Shown one piece after another: positions 32,456 to 37,997 of a DNA stretch of 44,432 nt. The notes below the pieces were generated by a model, which was not told the origin of the DNA, made no database searches, and saw only the letters and a program-made list of their open reading frames with translations. Where the stretch lies: the NCBI GenBank assembly GCA_030426945.1, contig JAUHXL010000006.1, positions 1 through 44,432 on the forward strand. The letters run 5' to 3'. Source of the stretch: a bacterium (GTDB lineage: Bacteria > Myxococcota_A > Bradymonadia > UBA7976 > UBA1532). Made by a program: the position numbers and the translations under genes. Numbering within the stretch: position 1 is the stretch's first letter; each line of letters starts with the position of its first letter.

Positions 32456-32935
32456 TCAGGCGCTCCGCAGCGCGGCGCGCAGGTCGGCGGGCGTCTCGTC
32501 GGGCAGGCTGCGCACCTCGATGGCCACGCCGCGGTCGGCCAGCTTGCGCAGCTGGTGCAGATCGTCGTCACCCAGGTAGACGGCGTTGGTCACCGCTCGG
32601 CGGCCGGGCGCGTGGTGGACGTTGCCGATGTTCAGCGTCGGGAAGGGGTGGCCCGACGCGAACAGGCGGATGGCGTCGTCCACCGTCTCGAGCAGCACCA
32701 TCGTCGGATCGTTGCCGAACCGGCGCGCGTTCAGCCAGGCGGCCGCCTGCTGGATGGGCAGGGCGTCGAAGGCGACGCCCTCGGGGATGGCCATCCGGTA
32801 CATGCTCATCTGCAGCGTGCTGTCGGGGATGGCGTCGTTGGCGATCACGATCCGGCGCAGGCGCAGGTGGGGCATCCAGGTCGAGATGATCTGGCCGTGC
32901 ACCAGCCGGTTGTCGACGCGGTAGAAGGGGTTCAC
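32456..32935 (-). CDS. PTS mannose-family EIIB
   Basis: The product has 159 residues. The N terminus FYRVDNRLVHGQIISTW holds the phosphorylated His13, followed by IVIANDAIPDSTLQ and the usual VLLETVDDAIRL. The GTG start at 32935 overlaps the EIIA stop by GTGA and has AAAGGAAAG upstream. It receives phosphate from EIIA and hands it to the sugar at EIIC/EIID, if transport occurs. Confidence 0.94.
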   Translation of the reverse strand: MNPFYRVDNRLVHGQIISTWMPHLRLRRIVIANDAIPDSTLQMSMYRMAIPEGVAFDALPIQQAAAWLNARRFGNDPTMVLLETVDDAIRLFASGHPFPTLNIGNVHHAPGRRAVTNAVYLGDDDLHQLRKLADRGVAIEVRSLPDETPADLRAALRSA

Positions 32936-33339
32936 GCCGTCTTTCCTTTGCCGTGCAGCAGCTCGCCGGCGACCAGGATGTTCTGTCGACCGTGCTCGCG
33001 GGCGAGCGCGGCGACGACCCCCAGATCGCCCTCGCGGCTGGTGAACAGCTTCAGCAGCATGGGCAGGTTCACGCCGGTCACCACCTCGACGTCGTCGCCG
33101 AGGAGCGAGAGGCTGAGGTTCGAAGGCGTCCCGCCGAACATGTCGCACAACAAGACCACCCCGTCGCCGGCCTGCACCGCGCGCACGGCGGCTCGCAGGT
33201 CGGCGAGGATGGTGTCCATGCCGTCGCCCTGGCGCACCGACACGGTGGCGCACGCGGGGAACTCGCCGACGATCATCTTGGCGGTCTCGAGCAGCGCGTC
33301 GGCCAAGGGGCCGTGCGTGCAGACGACGACGCCGATCAT
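32932..33339 (-). CDS. PTS mannose-family EIIA
   Basis: The product has 135 residues, a stand-alone EIIA. His9 in VVVCTHGPLADALL accepts phosphate from HPr. The conserved VVLLCDMFGGTPSNLSL and VVTGVNLPMLLKL are present. The ATG at 33339 overlaps the rapZ stop by ATGA. In E. coli, EIIA and EIIB are fused in ManX; here they are separate, as in several other groups. Confidence 0.95.
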   Translation of the reverse strand: MIGVVVCTHGPLADALLETAKMIVGEFPACATVSVRQGDGMDTILADLRAAVRAVQAGDGVVLLCDMFGGTPSNLSLSLLGDDVEVVTGVNLPMLLKLFTSREGDLGVVAALAREHGRQNILVAGELLHGKGKTA

Positions 33340-34214
33340 GTCGTCTCCTTGTCGATGTCTCGGTGGCGCACCTTCGGGCGAATGCCCGCGTCACGCAGGT
33401 GCTCCGCGACGCGCTCGGCGATGGCCACCGAGCGGTGGCGACCGCCCGTGCAGCCGAACGCCAGGGTCAGGTAGCTCTTGCCCTCACGCTCGTAGGCGGG
33501 CAGCACCTCGTCGAGCAGGGGGATGAAGCGCTCGATGAAGTGCCCGGTGACCTCCTTCTCGAGCACGTAGTCCCGCACCGCGGCGTCGAGGCCCGAGTGG
33601 GGCCGCAGGTGCGGGATGAAGTGGGGGTTGGGCAGGAAGCGCACGTCCCAGATGATGTCGGCCTCGGTGGGCACGCCGTGGCGGAAGCCGAAGCTCTGGA
33701 TCGACACGACCAGGCCGGTGTGACGATCGCCCTTGGCCCACGCCTGCACCAGCCGCTTGCACTCGTGGACGTTGATGTCCGACGTGTCGACGCGCTGGGT
33801 GGCGACCTCGCGGAAGGGGTGCATCGCCTGGCGTTCGACGCGGATGGCCTCGGGCAGCAAGAGCCCCCCGCGGCTCAACGGGTGCGGGCGCCGCGAGGCG
33901 CTGAACCGGCGGAGGAGCACGGCGTCGCTGGCCTCGAGGAAGAGGATCTCGATGGCCAGCCCCGTGGACCGCAAGACCTCGAGCGTCTCGACGACCGCCT
34001 CGGCGTCGCGCACGTTGCGCGCGTCGAGGCCCACCGCAAGGGTGCGGTACTTGTCGGTCTCGCGCGCGAGATCGATCAGCTTGGGCAGCAGCGGCGGCGG
34101 CAGGTTGTCCACGCAGAAGAAGCCCGCGTCTTCGAGGGCGTTGGTCGCGGTGGTGATGCCCGAGCCGCTCAGCCCGGTGACCACGATCAGGTGAAGGCCG
34201 CCCTCGTCACTCAC
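33336..34214 (-). CDS. rapZ: RapZ-family protein with altered Walker A
   Basis: The product has 292 residues. In enterobacteria RapZ binds small RNA GlmZ and controls glucosamine-6-phosphate synthesis; elsewhere the family (YvcJ) is a nucleotide-binding protein of unclear role. The N terminus keeps the frame of the P loop, but reads TGLSGSGITTA: Ile20 (ATC) stands where Lys is expected in GSGKS. FFCVDNLPPPLLPKL and the C-terminal FGCTGGRHRSVAIAE are intact, so this is not a decaying gene. ATP binding may be weakened. GTG 34214 overlaps the hprK end by eight bases; EIIA follows by ATGA. Confidence 0.93.
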   Translation of the reverse strand: MSDEGGLHLIVVTGLSGSGITTATNALEDAGFFCVDNLPPPLLPKLIDLARETDKYRTLAVGLDARNVRDAEAVVETLEVLRSTGLAIEILFLEASDAVLLRRFSASRRPHPLSRGGLLLPEAIRVERQAMHPFREVATQRVDTSDINVHECKRLVQAWAKGDRHTGLVVSIQSFGFRHGVPTEADIIWDVRFLPNPHFIPHLRPHSGLDAAVRDYVLEKEVTGHFIERFIPLLDEVLPAYEREGKSYLTLAFGCTGGRHRSVAIAERVAEHLRDAGIRPKVRHRDIDKETT

Positions 34215-35220
34215 TGCCTGCGCCTCCCGGCCCGGTGTGCCGCCAGGGATCGTCGCCCTTCGCGAGGTGATCGTCCAGCCGATCGGCGAAGGCGCGGGCC
34301 GAGAACGTGCCGCCGAGCTCGAGCAGGTGGTTGCGGGCGGCGATCTCGATCAACAGCGACATCGACCGCCCCGGGCGCGCGGGCAGCGCGATCAGCTTCA
34401 CCGCGACGTCGGCCACCGTCGTCTCGCGCGTGTCGAGCCCGAGGCGCTCATAGTCGCCGTGCGGATCCCACTCGACGAGCTCGACGACGATCTCCACCCG
34501 CTTGCGATCGCGCACCGAGGCGGCGCCGAAGAGGTCGCGGACGTTGATGATGCCCAGCCCGCGGATCTCCATGTGGTGCCGGGTCAGCTCCGGGCAGGTG
34601 CCGACGACGACCGCGGGCGACTCCTGCTCGAGCAGCACCAGATCGTCCGCCACCAGCCGGTGCCCTCGGGTGACGAGCTCGAGCCCGACCTCGCTCTTGC
34701 CGATGCCCGCCTTGCCGGTGATCAGCACGCCCACGCCGTAGACGTCCACCAGCACCGCGTGGTGGCTCTCGCGGGGCAGCAGGCAGCGACCGAGGGCCTC
34801 GTTGAGGCGGGCGGTGGCCGGCGTCGACTCGAGGTCGGTGGTCAGCAGGGCGCAGCCGTGCTCGTCGCAGAGCACCCGCAGGGCGTCCGGCGGGGGATGC
34901 GCGGCGGTGAGCACCAGGGCGGGGATGCCGGTGCTCATCAGGCCGGTCAGCAGGGCGTGCTGGGCGTCGGGCGGCAGGGTGCTCAGATAGCCGCTCTCCG
35001 AGCGGCCCATCATCTGCACCCGGTCGTGCTCGAGGTGCTCGACGTAGCCGGTCATCGCCACGCCCAGCCGTTGGACGGTGGGCTGGCCAATGACCCGGTC
35101 GAGCCCCCGGACGCCGCCCGCCTCCACCTGGAAGTGCGTGCGGGCGGTCAGGTGCTCGAGCACCTCGCCGACCGTCGCCCCGGCGGGGCCCTGGGGGCGC
35201 AGCTCGTTCACGGCCCACAC
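34207..35220 (-). CDS. hprK: HPr kinase/phosphorylase
   Basis: The product has 337 residues. It phosphorylates or dephosphorylates the regulatory Ser of HPr. The N-terminal domain is followed by Walker A GKAGIGKS (169-176), the HPrK loop VADDLVLLEQ and the signature EIRGLGIINVRDLFG. GTG 35220 is taken as start; a second in-frame GTG at 35211 is possible. The 63 bases after ptsN hold no clear promoter. Presence with HPr Ser49 supports a working regulatory loop, as in many proteobacteria that use the PTS mainly for signalling. Confidence 0.94.
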   Translation of the reverse strand: MWAVNELRPQGPAGATVGEVLEHLTARTHFQVEAGGVRGLDRVIGQPTVQRLGVAMTGYVEHLEHDRVQMMGRSESGYLSTLPPDAQHALLTGLMSTGIPALVLTAAHPPPDALRVLCDEHGCALLTTDLESTPATARLNEALGRCLLPRESHHAVLVDVYGVGVLITGKAGIGKSEVGLELVTRGHRLVADDLVLLEQESPAVVVGTCPELTRHHMEIRGLGIINVRDLFGAASVRDRKRVEIVVELVEWDPHGDYERLGLDTRETTVADVAVKLIALPARPGRSMSLLIEIAARNHLLELGGTFSARAFADRLDDHLAKGDDPWRHTGPGGAGSE

Positions 35221-35283: not shown

Positions 35284-35745
35284 TCAGAGCTTCGCGTCCT
35301 CCGCCATCAGCAGGTCGAACATCGCGTCGGCGTCCTCGGCGTCGAGCAGGGCCTGGCGGATGGGCGGCTCCTTCAGCAGGCGCGTCACCCGGGCGAGCGC
35401 CTTGAGGTGCATGCCGTGCTGCTTCTCGGGCACCAGCAGCGTGAAGAACAGGTGGGTGGGCAGCCCATCGAGGCTCTGGAAGTCCACGCCCTGGCGGCTA
35501 CGCCCGACGCAGGCGACGATGTCGTCCACCGCGTCGGTCTTGCCGTGGGGGATGGCCACCCCGTCGCCGATGCCGGTGCTCTGCAGCTTCTCGCGCCGCA
35601 TCAGGGTCTCGACGAGCTGGTTGGGGTCCAGATCGCCGTCCACCTTCAGCGCCAGGCCCACGAGCTCGCGCAGCACGCCGGGTTTGTTCGATGCGCCCAG
35701 GTCGGCTTCGACCGCGGCGCGTTGCAGGAAATCGGAGATGCGCAT
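35284..35745 (-). CDS. ptsN: Nitrogen-type PTS EIIA (PtsN-like)
   Basis: The product has 153 residues. His67 in GDGVAIPHGKTDAV is the phosphorylation site; FTLLVPEKQHGMHLKALARV is typical of the EIIA-Ntr/fructose family. The ATG at 35745 is preceded by GAGGAA, 16 bases after rpoN. It is a regulatory EIIA with no EIIBC partner of its own, next to rpoN as in many proteobacteria; no hpf gene lies between, unlike E. coli. Confidence 0.93.
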   Translation of the reverse strand: MRISDFLQRAAVEADLGASNKPGVLRELVGLALKVDGDLDPNQLVETLMRREKLQSTGIGDGVAIPHGKTDAVDDIVACVGRSRQGVDFQSLDGLPTHLFFTLLVPEKQHGMHLKALARVTRLLKEPPIRQALLDAEDADAMFDLLMAEDAKL

Positions 35746-35761: not shown

Positions 35762-37219
35762 TCAGAACAGGCACTTACGCTTGGAGCTCGGCAGGATGCC
35801 CATCGCCTCGCGGTACTTGGCCACGGTGCGCCGGGCGATCTTGACGTTGTCCTTCTTGAGCAGCTCGACCAGCTTCTGGTCGCTGTGGGGCCGCTTGGGA
35901 TCCTCGTGAGCCACCAGCACGCGAATCTTGCTCTTGACCGCTTCACTGGCCAGGTCGCCCTGGGTGCCGGTGCCCTGAATGGACGAGTTGAAGAAGTACT
36001 TGAGCTCGAAGATGCCGCGCGGGGTGTGCACGTACTTGTTGGTCGTCACCCGACTGACCGTCGACTCGTGCATGCCGATGTCCTCGGCGACATCGCGCAG
36101 GATCAGCGGCTTGAGGTGCTCGACGCCCTTGTCGAAGAACTCGCGCTGAAACTTGATGATGCTCTCGGTGACCTTGACGATCGTGCGCTGCCGCTGCTGG
36201 ATGCTCTTGATCAGCCACTGGGCGGAGTTGAGCTTCTCGGTGACGTACTTCTTCGCCTCCGAGGTGTCCTCCTGCTTGAGGGCGTTGCGGTAGAACTGTG
36301 AGATGCGCAGCCGCGGCATGCCGTCCTCGTTGAGGAAGGCCGAGTAGCCGCCGTCGTCGGTCTTGCGGATGTAGATGTCGGGCGTGATGTAGCGGGGCTC
36401 GTCGCCCACGAAGGGGCGGCCGGGCCGCGGCTCGAGCTGGCTGATCAGCTTCGCCGCCTCGATGACCTCCTCGAGCTCGATGTCCATGGCGCGCACGATC
36501 GCGCCGTAGTTCTTCTTCTCGAGGTTGTCGAGGTGGTCGCGGATGATGTCCTCGACGATGGCGCCGAGCTCGAGGTGGCGCGCCTGGATGAGCAGGCACT
36601 CGCGCAGATCCCGTGAGCCGACCCCGAGCGGATCGAACTCCTGGACCATCTCGAGCACCTCTTCGACGTACTCGGGATCCTGGTCGAGCTCCTCGGCGAC
36701 CTGCTGCAGCGTGACGCCCTTGAGGTAGCCGTCGTCGTCGATGTTGCCGATCAGCCCCCAGGCGACGCGCTCCTCCTGCTCGGTGAAGTCGGACACCTGC
36801 AGCTGCCACAGCAGATGATCCATCAGCGTCGTCGGGCGGGTGAGCGTGGCCTCGTAGCCGGGCAGATCATCGTCGCGCAGGCGCTGGGTGCCGGTGCCCG
36901 GCGTGGGCGCCGTGTAGTTCTCGAAGTAGCTGTCCCAGTCGATCTGTTCGCGCGTGCTCTCGGCCTCGGCGTCGCCGGTCGCCTCCTTGGCCTCTTCCTT
37001 CTTCTCGCGCTTGGCGACCTCTTCTGCGCCCTCCACCCGCGCCGCGTGGGCGTCGATCTCGGTGAGCTCCTCGAGGAGCGGGTTCTCCATCAGCTCGTCA
37101 CGGACCGCGTCGATGAGATCCATGCGCGACAGCTGGAGCAACTTGATCGCCTGCTGCAGCTGGGGCGTCATCACCAGCTGCTGGCTCATCTTGAGATCGA
37201 GTCTCAGGTCAAGCGCCAT
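35762..37219 (-). CDS. rpoN: RNA polymerase sigma-54 factor
   Basis: The product has 485 residues. The Gln/Leu-rich activator-interacting N terminus (LRLDLKMSQQLVMTPQLQQA) is followed by an acidic linker (about 60-105), the core-binding domain and the DNA-binding end with the RpoN box ARRTVAKYRE. ATG 37219 gives the canonical N terminus and overlaps the lptB end by 11 bases; its ribosome site is weak, so it probably depends on translation of lptB. It recognises -24/-12 promoters together with activators such as the FHA protein in this window. Confidence 0.96.
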   Translation of the reverse strand: MALDLRLDLKMSQQLVMTPQLQQAIKLLQLSRMDLIDAVRDELMENPLLEELTEIDAHAARVEGAEEVAKREKKEEAKEATGDAEAESTREQIDWDSYFENYTAPTPGTGTQRLRDDDLPGYEATLTRPTTLMDHLLWQLQVSDFTEQEERVAWGLIGNIDDDGYLKGVTLQQVAEELDQDPEYVEEVLEMVQEFDPLGVGSRDLRECLLIQARHLELGAIVEDIIRDHLDNLEKKNYGAIVRAMDIELEEVIEAAKLISQLEPRPGRPFVGDEPRYITPDIYIRKTDDGGYSAFLNEDGMPRLRISQFYRNALKQEDTSEAKKYVTEKLNSAQWLIKSIQQRQRTIVKVTESIIKFQREFFDKGVEHLKPLILRDVAEDIGMHESTVSRVTTNKYVHTPRGIFELKYFFNSSIQGTGTQGDLASEAVKSKIRVLVAHEDPKRPHSDQKLVELLKKDNVKIARRTVAKYREAMGILPSSKRKCLF

Positions 37220-37997
37220 CGGTGTCTCGCTGCAAGAAGCCCTCTTCCGTGATTCGCGCCGGTCGACTGGGTGTCGCCGGCCAACCTCCCCCGAGATACC
37301 GCGCCCGGACGCGGGCGTCGGCGGCCACCTGGGCCGGCGTGCCGTCTGCAAGCAGCACGCCGTCGGCAAGTATATAGACGCGATCACACGTCTCCAAGGA
37401 CTGACGCGCGTCGTGGTCGGTCAGCAGCACTCCGACGCCTGTTCGGGTGAGGGCGCGCAGCTGCGCCGCGACCCGCTCCCGGGCCAGCGGATCGAGGCCG
37501 GCGAAGGGCTCGTCCACCAGCAGGACGCGCGGCTCCGCGGCCAGGGCCCGCACGATCTCGACCCGGCGGCGCTCGCCCCCGCTGAGCGTGGCGCCCCGGG
37601 CGCGGGCGAGGTGGGCCAGGTCGTGGGCCGCCAGCAGGGCGTCCCGGCGGGCTGAGCGCGCCGCCCGGGCGTGCCCGCGGCGGGCCAGGGCCACGTCGAC
37701 GTTGCCCGCGACGGTCAGCCGGCGGAAGACCGTGGGCTGCTGTGGCAGGTAGCCCAGACCGGCGCGCGCGCGGCGCCACAAGGGCCACCCGCTGACGTCC
37801 ACGTCGTCCAGGGTGACGCTGCCCGCGGCGGCGCGCAGCAGGCCGGTCAGCAGCCGAAAGGTGGTGGTCTTGCCGGCGCCGTTGGGGCCCAGGAGGCCCA
37901 CGACCTCGCCGGGCGCCACCGTCAGCGACAGATCGTGCACGACGACGCGGCCCCGGAAGGCGCGGCGCAGGCCGATCGCGGCGAGACCGGCGCCCAT
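37209..37997 (-). CDS. lptB: LPS export ABC transporter ATPase LptB
   Basis: The product has 262 residues. It powers LPS extraction from the inner membrane. Walker A GPNGAGKTT is at 37-45, LGYLPQQPTVFRRLTV covers the Q loop, the signature is LSGGERRRVEI, and Walker B is RVLLVDEPFAGLDP. The end has about 23 residues beyond the YLGGG that usually closes LptB. ATG 37997 lies one base after the lptA stop. Its membrane partners LptF and LptG are not in the window. Confidence 0.94.
   Translation of the reverse strand: MGAGLAAIGLRRAFRGRVVVHDLSLTVAPGEVVGLLGPNGAGKTTTFRLLTGLLRAAAGSVTLDDVDVSGWPLWRRARAGLGYLPQQPTVFRRLTVAGNVDVALARRGHARAARSARRDALLAAHDLAHLARARGATLSGGERRRVEIVRALAAEPRVLLVDEPFAGLDPLARERVAAQLRALTRTGVGVLLTDHDARQSLETCDRVYILADGVLLADGTPAQVAADARVRARYLGGGWPATPSRPARITEEGFLQRDTDGA

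Follow-up and report, generated by a model that had tools for sequence, protein, structure and literature searches.

An isoleucine in place of the P-loop lysine is fixed in the RapZ proteins of one order of Myxococcota

RapZ is a regulator of the cell envelope. In Escherichia coli it is an RNase adapter (structures 5o5o and 8b0i) that needs both of its domains to form a tetramer, and its Walker motifs point away from the RNA and make no contact with it (PMC9841335). Its P-loop binds sulfate mainly through backbone amides (PMC5737377). The C-domain pocket (H190, C247, T248, G249, H252, and R253) accommodates sulfate, malonate, or probably GlcN6P, and the N-domain may act, as has been proposed, as an allosteric switch that responds to an unknown ligand (PMC9841335). 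In Bacillus subtilis YvcJ, the K22A substitution abolished ATP binding and hydrolysis, UDP-GlcNAc binding was lost, and the partner protein GlmR was still bound (PMC7525490). In Mycobacterium tuberculosis Rv1421, whose P-loop carries Arg in this position, UDP is the best ligand and binds strongly, and binding of ATP is weak (PMC11229554). EcpK of Myxococcus xanthus, a P-loop kinase relative, has lost all Walker motifs and is a proposed scaffold (PMC12004946).

Here we describe a RapZ protein, from an order of uncultured Myxococcota, with isoleucine at the site of the Walker A lysine, the P-loop residue that ordinarily contacts the phosphates of a nucleotide. The window, i.e. the whole stretch of 44,432 nucleotides that was analysed, contains a full-length rapZ gene (Table 1). 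The translation begins VSDEGGLHLIVVTGLSGSGITTATNALEDAGFFCVDNLP, and the P-loop reads TGLSGSG-I-TTA. Both Pfam domains score far above their cut-offs: 138.5 bits for the N-terminal RapZ-like domain (PF03668; cut-off 25.4) and 157 bits for the C-terminal RapZ domain (PF22740). Its ends overlap the neighbouring genes, hprK upstream by 8 bp (34207-34214) and the one for EIIA-Man downstream by 4 bp (33336-33339). Membership of the RapZ/YvcJ family stands despite the isoleucine, because the Pfam match is independent of the P-loop residue, and the protein falls inside the RapZ family tree and has the conserved rpoN-ptsN-rapZ neighbourhood. This membership does not imply a functional Walker A NTPase.

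Table 1. Features of the rapZ locus, in window coordinates
Feature	Coordinates	Strand	Basis and remarks
EIIA-Man, phospho-His kept (CTHGP), 4-bp rapZ overlap	32932..33339	-	Pfam, motif
rapZ	33336..34214	-	292 aa, GTG start, stop included; Pfam RapZ-like_N + RapZ C-terminal domain
C-terminal domain PF22740, sugar-phosphate/RNA pocket GCTGGRHRS kept	33351..33710	-	Pfam; AlphaFold2 match to 5o5s
N-terminal kinase-like domain PF03668	33738..34193	-	Pfam; AlphaFold2 match to 9m1v
Lid motif R102-R103-FSAS-R108-R109-P-H111, basic residues kept	33882..33911	-	Alignment
P-loop G14-L-S-G-S-G-I20-T-T22	34149..34175	-	Translation + alignment
Ile20 codon ATC, Walker A lysine site (E. coli RapZ K14, B. subtilis YvcJ K22)	34155..34157	-	Translation, alignment
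hprK, HPr kinase/phosphorylase, own P-loop lysine intact (GKAGIGKSE)	34207..35220	-	Pfam, motif
ptsN-like EIIA, phospho-His kept (IPHGK)	35284..35745	-	Pfam, motif
rpoN, sigma-54	35762..37387	-	Pfam; ORF as listed, true start probably internal

The closest described relatives differ from this protein in distinct ways. E. coli RapZ is about 42% identical in a structural alignment and has the same two domains, C-domain GlcN6P/sulfate pocket residues, P-loop glycines, and lid arginines, but its Lys14 and K170 are replaced by Ile and Arg, respectively, in the Ile-type RapZ. The basic residues of the enterobacterial sRNA adaptor are not retained as a set: RNA-binding K270 and R282 are not conserved in the order to which the window belongs, the K281 site is Lys in 15 of 16 proteins, and position 283 lies past the aligned end. 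K22 of YvcJ, a member of the same family, is the site of the isoleucine; unlike B. subtilis, the order and its class lack GlmR/YvcK above the family cut-off. No GlmR/YvcK match (TIGR01826) above cut-off was present in 58 relatives, and none whatever in the order's 16 genomes. Loss of GlmR was rejected as the cause of the isoleucine, since GlmR is missing class-wide, including from Lys-type members. A search for the glmS ribozyme in the same 16 genomes (G000-G015) found none. Rv1421, also of the same family, still binds UDP with a non-lysine P-loop (Arg30; PMC11229554), but Arg keeps the positive charge and Ile does not. EcpK comes from the same phylum and is likewise a P-loop kinase relative without catalytic motifs that is proposed to be a scaffold (PMC12004946), but it belongs to another family and has lost all Walker motifs, whereas the Ile-type RapZ lacks only the lysine.

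The order was represented by 16 genomes from 11 genera of two families (f1 and f2). A RapZ match was found in each, and all 16 carry GLSGSGI[ST]T. The isoleucine is encoded by ATC in 13 genomes, ATT in two, and ATA in one, so the nucleotide sequence has diverged under an unchanged residue; either Lys codon is two substitutions away from ATC. The window rapZ is the sole PF03668 gene detected in its source MAG (∼76% complete), which is spread over 772 contigs, an origin that leaves room for an assembly or base-calling error, or for a decaying gene. Against this stand 16 independent genomes, three synonymous codons, and ORFs that are intact and operonic, which together rule out both error and decay; the chance that either explains Ile20 is practically nil. 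The earlier note on this DNA, which had read an isoleucine in the Walker A site of an intact gene embedded by overlaps and had judged decay unlikely, was right on these points, and the base-calling error that it had allowed for did not materialise. The Ile20 codon also lies within the range that the note had given (34150-34180).

An alignment of RapZ across Myxococcota, which the same note had proposed, confined the isoleucine to the window's order. With the order's 16 Ile proteins set apart, the P-loop residue in other taxa is Lys in 66 aligned proteins, Arg in 21, and Met in one, i.e. the column is 75% Lys. Lys or Arg is present in all RapZ proteins that were read from the rest of the class and phylum, and a hydrophobic residue was absent from the 25 further RapZ proteins read from class and phylum. 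Scanning 379 Myxococcota genomes for a hydrophobic-codon pattern gave matches in 11, all in the window's order; the order's remaining five genomes escape the pattern through variation at other positions. Outside Myxococcota, the frequency of hydrophobic P-loop residues was judged from 80 loci (one Met). Plasmid records yielded only distant relatives of RapZ. In a tree of 104 RapZ proteins, the 16 Ile proteins form a single clade (SH-aLRT 100) that requires one change, and exchanges between Lys and Arg at this site are more frequent than the change to Ile. The tree is a quick one with the P-loop column left out, and its support concerns the Ile clade and not its sister group. Ile-type RapZ is a real, clade-wide, single-origin Lys-to-Ile (or Arg-to-Ile) variant of a known regulator.

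Elsewhere the protein has changed little. Of 51 near-invariant positions (identity of 95% or more in other taxa; the P-loop column was counted apart), 46 are kept in the order. Clear departures, in window numbering, are L131M, L152C, and K178R, with small drops at positions 100 and 144. Residues G14, S16, G17, S18, G19, T22, D64, R66, R103, R108, R109, and H111 are present in all 16 proteins, with either Ser or Thr at position 21. In the C-domain pocket, C247, T248, G249, H252, and R253 are kept in 16 of 16, and H198 (E. coli H190) in 15 of 16. The N-domain diverges slightly faster relative to the C-domain, with an N-/C-domain identity ratio of 0.93 compared to about 0.98 in three other groups.

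Nucleotide binding and turnover could in principle be normal despite the isoleucine, if the missing charge were supplied by the lid arginines, by R115 or R154, or by a neighbouring subunit. The lid arginines are indeed present, and positions 115 and 154 are richer in Arg/Lys than in other taxa, with K/R/H in 75% and 88% of the order's proteins, respectively. However, neither gain is fixed, both positions already carry Arg or Lys in many Lys-type RapZ proteins, and the lid arginines are common to all RapZ. A search of the alignment for a compensating Lys or Arg in the N-domain showed no basic residue that is both new and fixed in the order, so that the substitute lysine from another position, which the earlier note had named as a possible refutation, did not turn up. 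We regard normal turnover as improbable.

The AlphaFold2 model of the window RapZ (mean pLDDT 91) keeps the strand-loop-helix of the P-loop. Its N-domain superposes on 9m1v, the ligand complex of the Rv1421 N-domain and the closest N-domain structure, with an rmsd of 1.9 Å over 156 columns, and its C-domain on that of E. coli RapZ (5o5s) with an rmsd of 1.2 Å. Full-length superpositions are poor (about 14 Å), as expected if the domain layout differs from that of the domain-swapped E. coli tetramer; at a pTM of 0.60 the domain arrangement of the model is untrustworthy.

From published work on the P-loop together with the conservation pattern, we infer that Ile-type RapZ runs no NTPase cycle. 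That nucleotide sensing has been lost or changed, as previously suggested for this protein, is a natural conclusion in light of the YvcJ K22A result (PMC7525490). We propose, with confidence that is evenly poised, that Ile-type RapZ may be a non-hydrolysing sensor, with a phosphate-anion pocket in the N-domain and metabolite sensing in the C-domain. The N-domain would have lost the usual binding and hydrolysis of ATP/GTP and would still hold a phosphate-bearing or anionic ligand, e.g. a UDP-sugar or another diphosphate, via the backbone amides of the P-loop, the hydroxyl of Ser/Thr, and the lid arginines that it has kept. It would then set oligomer conformation with no cycle of hydrolysis, and the C-domain would continue to sense an amino-sugar phosphate via the intact GCTGGxHRS pocket. 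Several observations are consistent with such a sensor: the isoleucine is fixed and of single origin, the rest of the P-loop/lid pocket and the C-domain pocket are kept, and the predicted P-loop fold is intact in a domain that matches the Rv1421 ligand complex. In addition, E. coli RapZ holds sulfate through backbone amides (PMC5737377), and the Arg-bearing Rv1421 binds UDP (PMC11229554). The slightly faster evolution of the N-domain speaks against it, as does the failure of YvcJ K22A to bind UDP-GlcNAc, by which loss of the lysine may end all ligand binding (PMC7525490).

These last two observations favour a different role, in which the N-domain would bind no ligand and serve as a pure scaffold that only builds the tetramer, with regulation through the C-domain pocket and the P-loop kept for folding. 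YvcJ K22A, which retained GlmR binding without binding ATP or UDP-GlcNAc (PMC7525490), is a precedent. E. coli RapZ needs both domains for its tetramer and keeps its Walker motifs off the RNA (PMC9841335), and in Myxococcus the Walker-less EcpK is itself a proposed scaffold (PMC12004946). However, the remaining phosphate site, including the sequence-distant lid arginines, is invariant in 16 divergent genomes, whereas EcpK lost all of its motifs. Conservation of the lid arginines and of the P-loop backbone favours a phosphate-bearing ligand over a scaffold. A pure scaffold is possible, although we would not expect it. The idea that the isoleucine has retuned the P-loop for a non-NTP ligand (e.g. 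a UDP-sugar or a sugar phosphate), making the N-domain a hydrolysis-independent metabolite switch throughout the lineage, is tentative and rather unlikely to hold as stated. That an entire order has fixed the loss of the P-loop lysine with the rest conserved suggests that the conserved role of the RapZ N-domain is something other than NTP hydrolysis, and Ile-type RapZ offers a natural protein for separating ligand sensing from hydrolysis.

The genes around rapZ bear on another proposal of the earlier note, namely that the adjacent HprK/PTS relay may have taken over nucleotide sensing. In the window's family, the gene order is lptA-lptB-rpoN-ptsN-hprK-rapZ-EIIAMan-...-HPr-EI, so that genes for HprK, HPr, EI, and EIIA proteins adjoin rapZ, as they do in the window. 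The active-site residues of HprK, PtsN, and EIIA-Man are intact, and all HprK proteins read from this family retain the lysine of their own P-loop. However, most of this gene order also surrounds Lys-type and Arg-type RapZ of other taxa, as an rpoN-ptsN-hprK-rapZ-EIIAMan/HPr neighbourhood, and it therefore cannot alone explain the isoleucine. Moreover, HprK, HPr, and EI were not detected in any of the three genomes of the sister family f2 (G013, G014, and G015; 88-91% complete), all of which have Ile-type RapZ. There, rapZ lies directly 3' of ptsN. In the two genomes of genus g10 of this family, the IPHG motif of PtsN is replaced by FPF[IV], and the EIIA-Man-like ORF after rapZ also lacks its phospho-histidine; with the phosphorylatable histidines lost, these EIIA relatives must, if they act at all, do so without phosphorylation. 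An intact PTS relay in f2 is very unlikely, given the joint absence of three genes from all three genomes and the loss of histidines in two, although three incomplete genomes cannot prove absence. A handover to HprK/PTS as the general cause is contradicted by the shared operon order and by f2, and we give it hardly any credence. The retention of Ile-type RapZ in f2 without a detected PTS phosphorelay suggests that RapZ does not rely on the PTS with which it is usually co-encoded. The f2 loci that keep rpoN-ptsN-rapZ are L148 9260-12278 (G014), L149 3065-6167 (G015), and L150 8084-11874 (G013).

Some further variation was seen in the lid and at the P-loop site. The acidic residue of the lid at position 106 (RR[FY]S-E-TRR; Table 1) is present in 48 of 66 Lys-type, 19 of 21 Arg-type, and 3 of 16 Ile-type RapZ proteins; its loss in 13 of the latter falls within one clade and is not independent evidence. 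In a large group of RapZ proteins from Myxococcota, Arg occupies the P-loop lysine site, as in Rv1421, and most members are encoded near hprK, HPr, and EI (L040, L055, L058, L059, L068, L076, L077, L082, L083, L085, L088, L095, L100, and L111). Lujinxingia vulgaris (L048) and G032, a genome of the window's class, encode identical RapZ proteins, which ties this class to a named organism. In another phylum, a Desulfobacterales RapZ (L080 6001-6843) reads GSG-Met-ST, an independent hydrophobic replacement in the P-loop.
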